A stretch of 64,000 bases of DNA from Halovivax limisalsi (lineage in GTDB: Archaea > Halobacteriota > Halobacteria > Halobacteriales > Natrialbaceae), in assembly GCF_023093535.1 (NCBI RefSeq), contig NZ_CP095757.1:3534001-3598000 (forward strand). The letters run 5' to 3'. This document shows positions 5,440 through 35,792 of this stretch, piece after piece. Both the position numbers and the translations under genes were made by a program. Each line of letters starts with the position of its first letter. The first letter of the stretch is position 1. The notes under the pieces are model-generated. The model searched no databases, was not told where the DNA came from, and was given only the letters and a program-made list of their open reading frames with translations.

Positions 5440-6582
5440 ATGGATCCAGCGGATTTCGCCGATGGACCCGGCCAAATCGACGACTACGACGGGCTCCCCT
5501 GCCACCGACCGGCGAGTCTCCCGCCGGATCTCGAGGTGACCGAGGACGTGCTCGCGGTCTACGGCGACGCCCAGTACGCGCTGGGGCGGCTGGCGACGCT
5601 CGAACGCCACCTCGAGAATCCCACCCTCCTGATCGCCCCTTTCGTCCATCGCGAGGCCGCGATGAGTTCCCAGGTCGAGGGGACGAACGTGACGATCTCG
5701 GACATCTACGCCCACGAGGTCGGCGCCTCGCCGAAGCGCGCCGCGGCGGAACTGGCCGACGTTCGCGAGGCGTACAACTACGTCGACGCGGTCACCCACG
5801 GGTTCGAGCGCCTGAACGCGGGCGAATCGATCGACGTCGACCTGATTCGTCGGCTCCACGAGACGCTGCTTGGCGGCGTCCGCGGCGAGGAGGACCGCCC
5901 CGGCGAGCTCCGCGACGTCCCGGTCTACATCGGCGCGCGGGGCGACGGCCCCGACGGCGCCTCGTTCGTCCCCGCCAGTCCCGACTACGTGCCGCTCCTG
6001 CTCGAACAGTGTCTCTCGTACCTCCGTCGCGGGGAGTACCCGCCGCTGGTCGACACGGCGCTCGTTCACTACCAGTTCGAGGCGATCCACCCGTTCCGCG
6101 ACGGCAACGGCCGCCTCGGGCGCCTGCTCATCATGCTCCAGCTCTACGACGCCGGCCTGCTGCCCGGCCCGTACCTCTACCTCAGCGCGTACTTCAAGCG
6201 CCACGGGGTCGCGTATCGCGAGAAACTCCTCGAGGTGAGCACCGACGGCGCCTACGAGGAGTGGGTCGTCTTCGTCCTCGACGCGATCGCCGAGCAGGCC
6301 GTCGACGCCTACGACTGCGGCGTCGCGCTGACGGACCTCCGCGAGTCCTACCGCGCGAAGTTCCCCAGCTTTCCTACCGCCCGCGAACTCGTCGACTACG
6401 TCTTCGAACAGCCCTACCTCACGGGCCCACGCGCCGTCGAGGCGACCGGGCGCTCGAAGCCCTCCGTCTACGACGCCATCGAAGCGCTCGAGGCCGAGGG
6501 CATCGTCGTCGAGACGACCGGCCAGGAGCGAAACAAAGTGTACGAAGCGCCCGAGGTGCTCGCCGTGCTGGACTCGGGGTGA
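5440..6582 (+). CDS. Fic-domain AMPylase/nucleotidyltransferase with built-in inhibitory helix and C-terminal winged helix
   Basis: A 380-residue protein. The Fic catalytic motif HPFRDGNGRLGR (residues 217-228) is intact, including the histidine base and the phosphate-binding GNGR. Upstream, at residues 76-81, SSQVEG fits the inhibitory [S/T]xxxE[G/N] motif of class II Fic proteins, in which the glutamate blocks ATP binding. The C-terminus (about 315-375) looks like a winged helix (ATGRSKPSVYDAIEALEAEGIVVE), so DNA or dimer binding is likely. Fic proteins transfer AMP or other nucleotides to protein hydroxyls; the target here is unknown. CTTAAG lies about 27-32 bases upstream of the ATG, fitting a leaderless start. 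It is convergent to a toxin-antitoxin pair with only 23 bases between. Confidence 0.93.
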   Translation: MDPADFADGPGQIDDYDGLPCHRPASLPPDLEVTEDVLAVYGDAQYALGRLATLERHLENPTLLIAPFVHREAAMSSQVEGTNVTISDIYAHEVGASPKRAAAELADVREAYNYVDAVTHGFERLNAGESIDVDLIRRLHETLLGGVRGEEDRPGELRDVPVYIGARGDGPDGASFVPASPDYVPLLLEQCLSYLRRGEYPPLVDTALVHYQFEAIHPFRDGNGRLGRLLIMLQLYDAGLLPGPYLYLSAYFKRHGVAYREKLLEVSTDGAYEEWVVFVLDAIAEQAVDAYDCGVALTDLRESYRAKFPSFPTARELVDYVFEQPYLTGPRAVEATGRSKPSVYDAIEALEAEGIVVETTGQERNKVYEAPEVLAVLDSG

Positions 6583-7345: not shown

Positions 7346-9628
7346 TCAGATCGGAATCCGGCCGATCCCGAATAGACCGGGCGGGTCCCCGCCGCCGACC
7401 GTCATGTTCTCGGGCCACTCGACGTCGGCCACCTCGCCGACCGTCAGCTCGACCGCATCCCCGGATCGGTTGCCGAACGCGTCCTCGAGTCCGCCGGCGG
7501 GGATCGTGACGACGTCGCCCTCGTCGACGTCCTGAACGGTCGCGACCCAGCCACCGGCCACCTCGTCCCACTCAGCATCCACCGTCTCCCCGTCGATCTC
7601 AAGGGTCGCCGTCCCGCCGTGGGGTGAGCGTTCGCGCGACCGCAGGTTGTCGTCGGGATCCGGCGGCGGATTCTGCGCGAGGACCGTGAGTTCGACCCAT
7701 CCGTCCGACGTCGGCTCGGATGTTCGGATACCGCGAACCAGGAGCCCGGTCGAGGGGACCACCTCGAACGGATCGCTCGCGAGTTCGTATCGGGCCGCAT
7801 TCACCCGGAATCGGTACGTACCCGTCGGCAGGTCCGGCGTGACGTCGAATCGTGCCGCGTAGTCGCCATACCACTCGGTCCAGACGAAGCCGAGGCCGCG
7901 ATCGTCGCCGACGGGCTCCCACTCGTCGGATCCGGCCACGGCCCGCTCGAGGATGACGAACGGGTCGCCGACCGGCCGGTCGGCGCCCGAGTTCCCGCCA
8001 GACCACTCGAATCCGACGGTCTCCATCCGTTCGACGGTCGCCGGCGGCTCCGCGGTGATGGACCCGCCGTCGGCGCCCGCACCGACGGGGGCGTCGGGAC
8101 TCGACGGCCGCGAACCCGACGGATCGGGCGTGTCGCCGAGACCGTCGGCGAACGCGGCGGCGAGTTCGCGTTGGTGTCGTTCGACGAGGCGCGAGGCGTA
8201 CTTACCGAAGACGGTGTGGCCGCCCTCGTAGTGTTGCTGGTCGTACTCCTCGGGGGTCGTGAAGTAGCCGTTGTAGCCGTTCGCGACGCCGACGACCGTG
8301 ACGTCCGCGACGTCCTCCGGCGCAGCGTCCGCGGCCGCGGTCTCCATTCGCCGCCCCATCTCCACCGTGGGTTCGCCGGGGACGGTCACCAGCAGTCGGT
8401 CCCCGAGCCGAATGACCTGGATCTCGACGTCGCTCGACCACGGGGCCGGTCCGAGGACGATCTTGCGACCCTGTACCGGGTCGGCCAGCCACTCGGGACG
8501 GCGCTCGCCCTCGAGTTCGAGCCCCGAGAACGGCGTCGGGCCGTTCTCCCCGCCGTTCAGGATCGGCTTGCCGACGAGTCCCGTGCTCCCGACGCGCTCG
8601 TCGCCGTCGACGCGCTGGCCGTCGTACTCGACCACCCTCGATCGACCGCCGACGGGCAGGTCACGGGTGAGCGCATCGCCGGCAGCCCGCCAGGCCGCCC
8701 ACATCGCCGACTCGACGCGGACGGCCGTCCGCTCGGCCAGCGCGTACATCCCGTAGTCGTCGTAGTGCGTGATCTGATCGCCCGGATCGCTCGCCGCCGA
8801 CAGCGTGACGGGCGCCGCGCCGCCGTCGAACCGGTGGGCGAACCAGCGCGCGGCCACGCCGGGGAAATCGGCGGAGTAGGTCCGGTTCGCCGGGGTGAAC
8901 GTCGTCGGGTGATTGGCGTAGCAGGTCCAGGCGGCGATCGGCGCGTCGTCGACGCCCTCCACGCGGAGCAGGCGGAGGGTGTCATCGCGAGCGAGCGACG
9001 GATCGACGGGGTGGTCCTCCGGCGATCCCTCGCCCGGCGGGATGTCGAGACCGTAGTTCGCGAGGTGCGCTTCGATGGATCGGTTGACGTTGTTGTCGGG
9101 CACGTCCGCCTCGGCCCACGCCGCCCGCGCCGGTCGCCGGTTCGCGTCGGCCGCGGCGATCGCGTCGCCGATCTGTGCCGCGATCCAGTCGTCGAACTCG
9201 TCGGGACCCGCGTGCGTGTGCGTCGTCGCGTAGAGGACCGTGTCGCGGTCGAACCCGAGCGGGCGGGCGTGCTCGAGCACCGTCTCGCGGGCCATCGGAC
9301 GCCCGAGGTCGGCGCCGACGAGGGCCACCGTTCGCTGACCGTCCGACAGGACGAGCGCCCGGGCGTACAACCGAATCGAGACGCCGCTCGCCGTGATGTC
9401 CGGTCGCGCGTAGCCGAAGAAGGGCTCGCCGTTCGCCGGCGTGATATCTCGTACCGCCGCACCGGCGGTTAGCGTCCCCGCGCCGTCGAGGTCGCCATCG
9501 GTCGTTGCCCCGCGGTCGGCCCCCTTGGACGAGTCACTCGCCCCAGTGACGGTCGCGCTTGCGCCTAATCCCGAAGCAGCCGCCGCATAGCCGACGAATC
9601 GCCGCCGGTCCAGTCGTCGGTCGCTCAT
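7346..9628 (-). CDS. Tat-exported neutral/alkaline ceramidase-like protein
   Basis: A 760-residue protein with a twin-arginine signal (DRRRFVGYAAAASGLGASA, residues 7-26) followed by a short low-complexity linker. The body matches the neutral ceramidase catalytic domain. All four zinc-ligand motifs are recognisable: THTHAGPD (137-139), ANHPTTF (H240), PGEPTVEMGRRM (E419) and YNGYFTTPEEYDQQHYEG (Y455). The usual nucleophile motif GDVSPN aligns with GDQITH (residues 283-288), so the catalytic serine is not in place. A C-terminal beta domain (about 540-660) corresponds to the ceramidase immunoglobulin-like domain. Archaea do not make typical ceramides, so an exogenous amide or ester substrate is more likely. 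It sits alone on its strand. Confidence 0.85.
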   Translation of the reverse strand: MSDRRLDRRRFVGYAAAASGLGASATVTGASDSSKGADRGATTDGDLDGAGTLTAGAAVRDITPANGEPFFGYARPDITASGVSIRLYARALVLSDGQRTVALVGADLGRPMARETVLEHARPLGFDRDTVLYATTHTHAGPDEFDDWIAAQIGDAIAAADANRRPARAAWAEADVPDNNVNRSIEAHLANYGLDIPPGEGSPEDHPVDPSLARDDTLRLLRVEGVDDAPIAAWTCYANHPTTFTPANRTYSADFPGVAARWFAHRFDGGAAPVTLSAASDPGDQITHYDDYGMYALAERTAVRVESAMWAAWRAAGDALTRDLPVGGRSRVVEYDGQRVDGDERVGSTGLVGKPILNGGENGPTPFSGLELEGERRPEWLADPVQGRKIVLGPAPWSSDVEIQVIRLGDRLLVTVPGEPTVEMGRRMETAAADAAPEDVADVTVVGVANGYNGYFTTPEEYDQQHYEGGHTVFGKYASRLVERHQRELAAAFADGLGDTPDPSGSRPSSPDAPVGAGADGGSITAEPPATVERMETVGFEWSGGNSGADRPVGDPFVILERAVAGSDEWEPVGDDRGLGFVWTEWYGDYAARFDVTPDLPTGTYRFRVNAARYELASDPFEVVPSTGLLVRGIRTSEPTSDGWVELTVLAQNPPPDPDDNLRSRERSPHGGTATLEIDGETVDAEWDEVAGGWVATVQDVDEGDVVTIPAGGLEDAFGNRSGDAVELTVGEVADVEWPENMTVGGGDPPGLFGIGRIPI

Positions 9629-34839: not shown

Positions 34840-34912
34840 GCCCGGGTGGTGTAGTGGCCCATCATACAACCCTGTCACGGTTGTGACGCGGGTTCAAATC
34901 CCGCCTCGGGCG
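34840..34912 (+). tRNA. tRNA-Asp (GTC)
   Basis: A 73-base cloverleaf without intron. The acceptor arms GCCCGGG and CTCGGGC pair (one G-T), the anticodon stem CAACC/GGTTG encloses CTGTCAC with anticodon GTC, the T arm is CGGGT TCAAATC CCG-like, and the discriminator is G. A TTATACAT box lies about 30 bases upstream. Its last 22 bases recur twice downstream, so the gene has served as an integration site. Confidence 0.95.
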
Positions 34913-35046
34913 CTTCTTCGATTGCTACTCCGTGAGCGACCGGCATAGCCGTGTCGCGAACATCCGAAATCGAAGAGCGGCGGAAACGGGATTTGAGCCC
35001 TGTCAGTCGCGCGCAGCGAACGAAGTGAGCGAGCACGTCTGACTTC

Positions 35047-35068
35047 GGTTCAAATCCCGCCTCGGGCG
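35047..35068 (+). repeat. First downstream copy of the tRNA-Asp 3' end (att-like)
   Basis: 22 of 22 bases match tRNA-Asp positions 34891-34912, covering the T arm and 3' acceptor strand (GGTTCAAATCCCG through CTCGGGCG). The rest of the tRNA is absent, so it cannot form a tRNA. Confidence 0.9.
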
Positions 35069-35206
35069 TCTTCTTCCGCGAACTATCTCGACGAGCACCG
35101 CATAGCCTGTGCTCGATATCCGTGAGTGAAACAGACCCTACAAAAGGATTTGAATCAGAGAGAGCGCAGTCTTGCGAACGAAGTGAGCAAGGAAGCGATC
35201 GACCGT

Positions 35207-35228
35207 GGTTCAAATCCCGCCTCGGGCG
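35207..35228 (+). repeat. Second downstream copy of the tRNA-Asp 3' end (att-like)
   Basis: Again 22 of 22 bases match the end of tRNA-Asp. It lies 160 bases after the first copy and 157 bases before the nuclease gene, marking the outer edge of the scar region. Confidence 0.9.
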
Positions 35229-35384
35229 CTTTCTGCTGCCGCCAAAAACGAGAGAGGAGCATAGCGACGAGCGACTGCGTGGGGAGCAAACGAACCAGGC
35301 TCTGAAGGACAGTGTTCACAATATCAGTCGAGGGGCGCCTACCTATTCCGCAGGTTCATATCCGAGAGCGATGCCAGCGCCGAC

Positions 35385-35792
35385 ATGGCGAATTCGAAGG
35401 ACGTCGGTGACGAGACAGAGGCAAAGGTCATCTCCGCGGCGATTTCGGCGGGATACAGTGTCTCGATCCCGTTCGGTGATAACGACAAGTACGATCTGGT
35501 GTTAGACGATGGCGACGAACTGCTCCGAGTACAATGTAAGACCGCCTGGGAGAACAAATCGGAGACGATCCGTTTTAATACTCACTCCCAGACCACGAAG
35601 GAGGGGGCGTACCACGAGGCGACGTATCAGGACGCCATCGACGCGTTCCTCGTCAGATACCCGCCTGACGAACGGTTTTTCTGGATTGACGCCGCGGACG
35701 CGACGACACAGAAGATGGAACTCCGATTCGACGGAACGATCGATCATCCGTCGATCAACTGGGCCGTCGAGTACGAATTGGACTGGGAATAG
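35385..35792 (+). CDS. PD-(D/E)XK family endonuclease-like protein
   Basis: A 135-residue protein matching the small PD-(D/E)XK nucleases found in haloarchaea (group I intron endonuclease-like family). Catalytic pieces are visible: an early glutamate in DVGDETEAKVISAAI, the aspartate of NDKYDLVL and the QxK of LLRVQCKTAW. It could be a Holliday-junction-resolvase-like or homing nuclease. It lies directly beyond the att-like repeats of tRNA-Asp and is probably cargo left by an integrated element. A CATATC box at the leaderless distance supports the ATG. The natural target is unknown. Confidence 0.78.
   Translation: MANSKDVGDETEAKVISAAISAGYSVSIPFGDNDKYDLVLDDGDELLRVQCKTAWENKSETIRFNTHSQTTKEGAYHEATYQDAIDAFLVRYPPDERFFWIDAADATTQKMELRFDGTIDHPSINWAVEYELDWE

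Follow-up and report, generated by a model that had tools for sequence, protein, structure and literature searches.

The window, the whole 64-kb stretch of DNA that was analyzed, comes from a haloarchaeal genome of a single 3.89-Mb contig (G000) and carries a tRNA-Asp gene followed by two non-coding units, each closed by a further copy of the 3' end (tail) of that gene (Table 1). The repeated tail spans the tRNA from G53 of the T-loop to the discriminator, i.e., the last 21 nt of tRNA-Asp. As reported in the initial annotation of this DNA, the window contains exactly three copies of the last 21-22 bases of the gene (34892, 35048, and 35208; spacings of 156 and 160), and the words that it listed as common to both units were recovered at the expected places: CATAGCC at 34944 and 35101, with one more copy at 9586, and GGATTTGA (34989 and 35146) and GAACGAAGTGAGC (35018 and 35176), which lie nowhere else in the window. 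The complementarity noted there is present as well: reverse-complementing GGATTTGA gives TCAAATCC of the repeat, and the two pair in the predicted hairpin. The words recur in the inserts because GGATTTGA is the 5' arm, the T-loop/T-stem strand of the next tail is the 3' arm, and GCGAACGAAGTGAGC is the tip of one long hairpin. Within unit 1, hairpin 2 is predicted to pair its inverted T-arm (34987-34999) with 35047-35059 and one strand of a second helix, P2 (35002-35006), with 35039-35043, and has GCGAACGAAGTGAGC at its apex (35016-35030); the fold of the whole unit gives a z of -4.7. Unit 2 as a whole does not exceed its shuffles in stability (z -1.0), whereas its hairpin 2 alone does. The second unit ends at 35228, and the limit of 35384 set in the initial annotation is arbitrary.

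Table 1 Features at the tRNA-Asp locus, in positions of the window
Feature	Position	Strand	Basis and remarks
tRNA-Asp(GTC) gene	34840..34913	+	ARAGORN; Rfam RF00005; tail 34892-34912 (GTTCAAATCCCGCCTCGGGCG) is the repeated segment
Unit 1, hairpin 1; 5' strand T-rich, CATAGCC in apical part	34914..34977	+	Predicted fold; same module in congeners G001, G002, and G004
Unit 1, hairpin 2	34987..35059	+	Predicted fold; covariation of this hairpin class
Tail copy 1	35048..35068	+	Identical to 34892-34912
Unit 2, hairpin 1; different type, also with CATAGCC	35071..35130	+	Same type in G001 and G003; predicted fold weaker
Unit 2, hairpin 2; another type	35146..35217	+	Inverted T-arm 35146-35157 predicted to pair with 35206-35217
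Tail copy 2	35208..35228	+	Identical to 34892-34912
PDDEXK_5 protein, 135 aa, I-Ssp6803I homing-endonuclease family	35385..35792	+	Pfam PF11645, E 4e-36; adjoins the array

We read the 41 tRNA genes of G000 for tail copies, defined as segments with at most 3 mismatches in 21 nt located no more than 700 nt downstream of the tRNA. One or two further copies of the gene's own tail were present behind 20 of the 41 genes; in the same downstream DNA, none of 1,548 combinations revealed the tail of a different tRNA, and no inverted own-tail copy was found behind any of the 41. These results exclude a chance origin of the tail repeats. Comparable frequencies of downstream own-tail copies were obtained for congener G001 (18 of 31 tRNAs) and for a sample of G003 and G004 (17 of 31); upstream copies were absent from all 62 stretches of these three sister genomes, and mismatched pairs of tail and tRNA over three samples gave 0 matches in 3,220. 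Identity with the tRNA starts at G53/T54, as illustrated by tRNA-Lys, where the tRNA reads TGTTC and the copies read GGTTC. Of 285 tail copies, 238 retain the T-loop of the respective tRNA unaltered. In 12 instances, spread over different tRNAs and species, a downstream tail carries a one-base insertion, each time at one and the same T-loop place (TTCACAATC; L058, L275, L334, L353, L448-L450, L452, and L457). The initial annotation had offered two readings of the tRNA-Asp locus: amplification of an att-containing unit with inverted arms comes close to what we find, but scars of integration and excision at one tRNA is too local a description, given that the same architecture stands behind about half of the tRNAs and across the haloarchaea. 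Many units at unrelated sites away from tRNAs, which that annotation would have counted against its own reading, were not cleanly encountered: 10 of the 13 genomic copies of GAACGAAGTGAGC lie in tail arrays. The other three (G000:C1:510311, 616267, and 3100983; L040, L041, and L046) are part of a different dispersed haloarchaeal repeat, which has GAGCGAACGAAGTGAGCGAGCGGGCCGACGACCGA and a distal TTTTCAT and is located away from tRNAs.

Read away from the tRNA, the order within a unit is tail, hairpin 1, inverted T-arm, conserved hairpin 2, and next tail, for a length of about 95-190 bp, with a maximum of 240 bp, and no ORFs. The insert starts with a T-rich stretch and hairpin 1, whose stem often holds GCGAAC...GTGAGC. 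The inverted copy of the T-arm measures 9-13 nt and is tRNA-specific (e.g., GCGATTTGA for Lys, GGAGTTGAAC for Val-cac, and CGGAGATTTGA for Arg-gcg), and hairpin 2 occurs in a handful of types that are common to different tRNAs, such as CCTGCCAGTCGC...ACGTCTGGCTTC and TACCGAGGTTCTG...CAGGTTCTCGGGAGT. According to the predicted fold, hairpin 2 comprises a helix P1 formed by the inverted arm and the T-loop sequence, then a spacer of 2 and 3 nt, and then a 5-bp P2; a U.U mismatch and short paired steps lead on to the tip, which is often a triloop of the GNA type (90 of 132 triloops), a type that is typical of DNA. We assessed P2 in 50 independently fetched units in which the 5' arm was fixed by the search pattern and three P2 bases were free; 142 of these 150 positions pair, compared with a mean of 82.7 and a maximum of 102 after shuffling, and the commonest pairs are GCC/GGC, GGA/TCC, ATC/GAT, ACC/GGT, and GCA/TGC. 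Mismatches (U.U and C.A), internal loops, and the bases AGTCGC/ACGTCT are conserved across the class.

These compensatory changes and the strong predicted folds are in keeping with the main rival to the insertion of cassettes that we propose below, namely that the units are transcribed behind the tRNA and that their hairpins act as RNA (in trailer processing or termination, as a small RNA, or as a T-arm decoy), with the arrays varying only by local tandem duplication and deletion. The units always occupy the sense strand directly downstream of the tRNA, and G-U is found 72 times on the tRNA strand at the P1 junction (arm positions 0-2), where there is no A-C. The + strand is the more stable one in 91 of 115 unit hairpins when RNA parameters are used; however, the type-A set displays no such preference (25 versus 23), and neither strand is consistently ahead. 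Inside P1, G-U and A-C are equally frequent (13 and 13), and P2 lacks G-U, which does not look RNA-like, although G-U is also scarce in the acceptor stems of haloarchaeal tRNAs (5 of 287). Several properties of the arrays fit RNA function poorly: approximately half of the tRNAs have no units, and unit numbers differ between close species; the array of tRNA-Tyr keeps its form at 17 kb from its tRNA; and the tail retains its acceptor half, which is unpaired in the fold. Among strong arms, moreover, the inverted arm does not follow changes of the downstream tail (28 versus 3). Only tRNA reaches the gathering score of any Rfam 15 family within the units, the other matches being weak and due to chance. 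On balance, we rate an RNA role as unlikely, yet as an explanation to be kept seriously in mind. The inverted arm prefers the upstream over the downstream tail (34 versus 5), an observation that we discarded as support for a cassette-borne tail because it is confounded by decay of the downstream tail.

Comparison of orthologous tRNAs among the congeners revealed differences by whole units, which have been gained, lost, or reordered. For Ala-cgc and Arg-tcg, G001 possesses a unit plus tail between the tRNA and the flank, and in G000 the flank directly follows the tail; for Thr-tgt and Arg-tct, G001 has one extra unit. We count these four, together with Arg-cct, as filled versus empty sites. Arg-cct is empty in G004 and is followed by one 118-nt unit in G003, with the flanks in register at offset 119. 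An extra unit proximal to the tRNA was observed for Ile, Val-tac, and Lys-ctt; in the case of Ile, it is present in G000, whose second unit corresponds to the first of G001 (94%). The order of units differs for Lys-ttt (P-Q versus Q-P), where G003 starts with the 194-nt unit Q and G004 has it in second place (identity of 98% for Q and 94% for the flank), and for Val-cac, which reads X-Y in G004 and Y-X in G003. A decayed remnant of X behind the Val-cac array of G004 suggests that X entered anew beside the tRNA; the A-B-A pattern is also found for Ile in G000 and Gly-ccc in G001. In arrays with at least two tails, the distal tail differs more from the tRNA than the proximal one in 14 arrays and less in 3. 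Modules of hairpin 1 and hairpin 2 have recombined with joints at the inverted arm (tRNA-Ser-tga and tRNA-Lys). Orthologous units diverge by 13.8% in the body, 3.6% in the T part of the tail, and 9% in its acceptor part; the tail, which diverges less than the unit body, is constrained, homogenized, or renewed. The tRNA-Val-cac of G000 has an unusual T-loop (TTCAACT) that matches the inverted arm of the adjacent unit, behind which an older tail reads TTCGAAT, and its relatives have TTCGAAT or TTCAAAT; this single case, in which T-loop and arm have changed jointly, is as predicted for a cassette that brings its own tail.

Two other mechanisms could generate repeats of this type. Replication slippage or template switching at quasi-palindromes behind tRNAs would leave the arms and tail copies as functionless copying errors. 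Such templated copying accounts for inverted arms that are tRNA-specific and predicts that G-U is not overrepresented in P2 or inside P1, as observed, and identical tandem units do exist (Arg-cct and Leu-tag). In contrast, templated correction would erase the mismatches, internal loops, and AGTCGC/ACGTCT bases that persist class-wide, and the pattern is missing from 240 other genomes of the phylum despite their universal tRNA genes, which makes slippage an improbable source of the units. Alternatively, hairpin DNA may have been inserted into the tRNA end in the style of a casposase or of CRISPR Cas1-Cas2, the 21-nt tail representing the duplicated target and the array growing beside the tRNA as a CRISPR array does at its leader. 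This mechanism is consistent with tails that always match the local tRNA, including the species-specific variants of the tRNA-Asp tail, with the polarity of decay, and with hairpin-2 types that are common to different tRNAs; however, the insert already carries an inverted T-arm that matches the same tRNA, as is unexpected of a tail-independent insert, and 21 nt is long for such a duplication. We therefore view target duplication as quite improbable.

The distribution of the units was examined by using GATTTGANNCCTNNNAGTCGC as a half-pattern for hairpin 2. Among 295 genomes of the phylum, this pattern matched at 39 places in 19 genomes, all in the order seen in the window, and the reversed control yielded no match in the same genomes; hairpin 2 is confined to haloarchaea in this set. 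Every locus that was fetched is preceded by a tRNA of the same orientation at a distance of 38-460 nt. When 84,980 species were scanned, the listed matches were mostly haloarchaeal (Halorubrum, Haloarcula, Halosimplex, Natrinema, Halobacterium, and others). Among the matches listed, 61 of the 73 haloarchaeal ones read lie within 700 nt behind a tRNA compared with 0 of the 10 in other organisms, and the remaining haloarchaeal ones mostly belong to tail arrays or sit at contig ends. The viral and phage collections contained no real match to a unit or to the Asp 22-mer; 120 + 3 pattern matches in the viral, phage, and plasmid searches were dismissed as chance because the partner strand was missing. 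Two true units were located on plasmids, both at tRNAs (tRNA-Val of Natronorubrum bangense and a tRNA array of Haloarcula halophila), and other plasmid matches were rejected as units for sharing merely a GCGAACGAAGTGAGC-like hairpin. On the Haloarcula halophila plasmid, whose tRNA array is virus-like and which also encodes a type B DNA polymerase, hairpin 2 lies inside the T-loop of tRNA-Cys with no preceding tail (L469, about 5890-6075), and it is placed likewise within the T-loop of a tRNA-Asp in a Halobacteriales MAG (L375, reverse strand, around 340). These cases are either broken tRNAs or intron-like insertions.

Ordinary integrative elements also use these sites. A provirus-like region of ∼17 kb separates tRNA-Tyr from its array of 4-5 tail units (L147, G000:C1:3288500-3307500); it carries a tyrosine integrase (L147, 16573-17610) and is an element separate from the units. 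These tRNA ends are therefore targeted by ordinary integrases as well. No larger element ending in the Asp 22-mer turned up in the viral, phage, and plasmid collections; given the provirus at tRNA-Tyr, this second observation that the initial annotation would have counted against itself was not made cleanly either. Tail copies might be scars of integrative elements (proviruses or plasmids) lost by deletion some time after their integration at tRNA ends. Duplications of tRNA ends by integrative elements have been described in haloarchaea, where they encompass 22-43 nt of the tRNA 3' end (PMC3119063; PMC7921747), and Haloferax gibbonsii has 11 partial tRNAs that "in several cases" adjoin the full copy (PMC7921747). 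Against this explanation, the inserts found between tails were all of cassette size, hairpin 2 is missing from the right end of the tRNA-Tyr provirus, and independent random deletions would not be expected to create one architecture with covarying hairpins over many tRNAs and a whole class. We judge such scars to be a very unlikely origin of the units. The tRNA-Asp gene is often duplicated in this family, and the copies flank cellular genes, each with its own unit array (L089-L106). An autonomous element between the duplicated genes of relatives was considered and rejected, as the stretches contain ordinary cellular genes (e.g., for transducer-like and histidine-kinase-like proteins).

The gene that adjoins the array in the window encodes a member of the family (PF11645) of I-Ssp6803I, a tRNA-intron homing endonuclease. 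In 13 relatives, all 7 copies of this gene are situated 100-700 nt downstream of tRNA-Asp (5) or tRNA-Asn (2); there is usually one per genome, and it is present or absent between congeners (L421-L427). PDDEXK_5 looks like a tRNA-linked freestanding homing endonuclease and is only possibly part of the unit system. It was rejected as the driver of the arrays, since it is absent from 7 of the 13 genomes and found at tRNA-Asp and tRNA-Asn only. The tRNA-Asn genes beside it were called at 107-110 nt, ∼35 nt above the usual length (L426, 2003-2112; L427, 814-920), which suggests an insertion or intron in the tRNA.

We propose that the units constitute a haloarchaea-wide family of tiny ORF-less cassettes that are inserted site-specifically at tRNA 3' ends. 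This proposal is tentative and quite possibly correct; site-specific insertion into the T-loop is indicated by the presence or absence of whole units at a fixed point, the tail copy that keeps the tRNA intact, the proximal growth and distal decay of the arrays, and the compensatory changes in the hairpin. A cassette would consist of the tail from T54 to the discriminator, hairpin 1, the inverted T-arm, hairpin 2, and the last G. It would enter next to the tRNA, between G53 and T54 of the T-loop, where its matching tail would rebuild the tRNA as the old tail was pushed downstream; the array would grow away from the tRNA, and its distal members would decay. The form that is recognized may be the folded hairpin, with the inverted T-arm paired to the T-loop sequence, as in the attC sites of integrons. 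The data directly show the architecture, the restriction to the respective tRNA, the conserved and covarying hairpin, the occurrence at tRNAs throughout the clade, and the differences in presence and order of units among congeners. Four further points are inferred: units are gained through site-specific recombination, the cassette brings its tail along, the strand that folds is DNA, and a tyrosine recombinase encoded elsewhere acts on the units in trans. Both the T stem-loop and the 3' end of tRNA genes are known to serve archaeal tyrosine recombinases (PMC8371274), and bacterial integrons use folded hairpins (PMC2727003). In G000, no recombinase could be tied to the units: among five Phage_integrase matches, only that of the tRNA-Tyr provirus was found beside an array. 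In the viral, phage, and plasmid collections, we encountered neither a circular or mobile form nor a larger element that shares the ends of the units, and no viral contig had a copy. Weighing against cassettes, homologous recombination between the repeats suffices for gain, loss, and apparent reordering of units in arrays of two or more; only the empty and filled sites call for a further process, and even there the empty state may be the derived one, through loss. Furthermore, units of ∼120 bp are too small for the usual double-stranded circle. Going beyond the cassettes themselves, it is conceivable but rather unlikely that single-stranded folded DNA cassettes with a tRNA 3' end enter and leave T-loops by means of a putative enzyme in a class-wide archaeal recombination system, integron-like, with every tRNA gene as an anchor and an origin separate from that of bacterial integrons.

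Mobility of the units would make half of the haloarchaeal tRNA genes permanent landing sites of a previously unnoticed element, with the 3' third of the tRNA rewritten at each insertion; this would bear on the attraction of tRNA genes for mobile DNA and on how folded-hairpin recombination arose. If the units are RNA, an unannotated structured element accompanies tRNAs through the whole class. Lone tRNA-end repeats in this clade are not automatically traces of a lost provirus. The choice between cassette and RNA is testable in model archaea because the arrays differ between close relatives, and the discovery of a recombinase would make "integron-like system anchored at tRNAs" the obvious name.

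We found no described element that matches the units, and each family with which they were compared departs from them in one or more of its defining features; no description of them appeared in the literature searched, from which subscription journals are largely absent, and an earlier description is possible. Integron arrays resemble the units in having small cassettes at a fixed anchor and in the reordering of cassettes. Their attC sites are weakly conserved, imperfect hairpins that combine paired arms and an unpaired spacer with a variable tip and in which structure is conserved over sequence (PMC2727003). The predicted fold of the units looks similar, comprising P1, an asymmetric spacer (2/3 nt), P2, and a variable tip, and the arms of both read ...GAAC / GTTC.... 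The consensus of the integron core site is RYYYAAC / GTTRRRY, whereas the sites of the units read GATTTGAAC / GTTCAAATC, with C rather than R after GTT, so that GTTCAAA misfits GTTRRRY. Unlike integron cassettes, the units have no ORFs, and their anchor is a tRNA T-loop that is rebuilt by the cassette. The integron integrase (TIGR02249) gave no match in G000 and none over the cut-off in 20 relatives. Integrative elements that target tRNAs (haloarchaeal proviruses and Haloferax IGEs) share the tRNA 3' duplication of ∼22 nt and the intact tRNA, but the units are ∼120 bp, geneless, in tandem behind half of the tRNAs, and endowed with covarying hairpins; between the tail repeats there are no integrase or element genes, just structured non-coding inserts. 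Haloarchaeal MITEs, PATEs, and small mobile repeats (Haloquadratum, PMC3119063) are short, non-coding, and mobile, PATEs having near-terminal palindromes. They are dispersed, however, whereas the units sit behind tRNAs only and bear the tail of the respective tRNA; a MITE has terminal inverted repeats in common with a transposon and a constant target duplication, whereas the insert has no constant terminal inverted repeat and its inverted arm matches the local tRNA. Finally, CRISPR arrays and casposon duplications share with the units a repeat plus variable insert, apparent growth at an anchor, and far-end decay, but the inserts of the units are one structured family rather than foreign spacers, and their repeat is a functional tRNA end.
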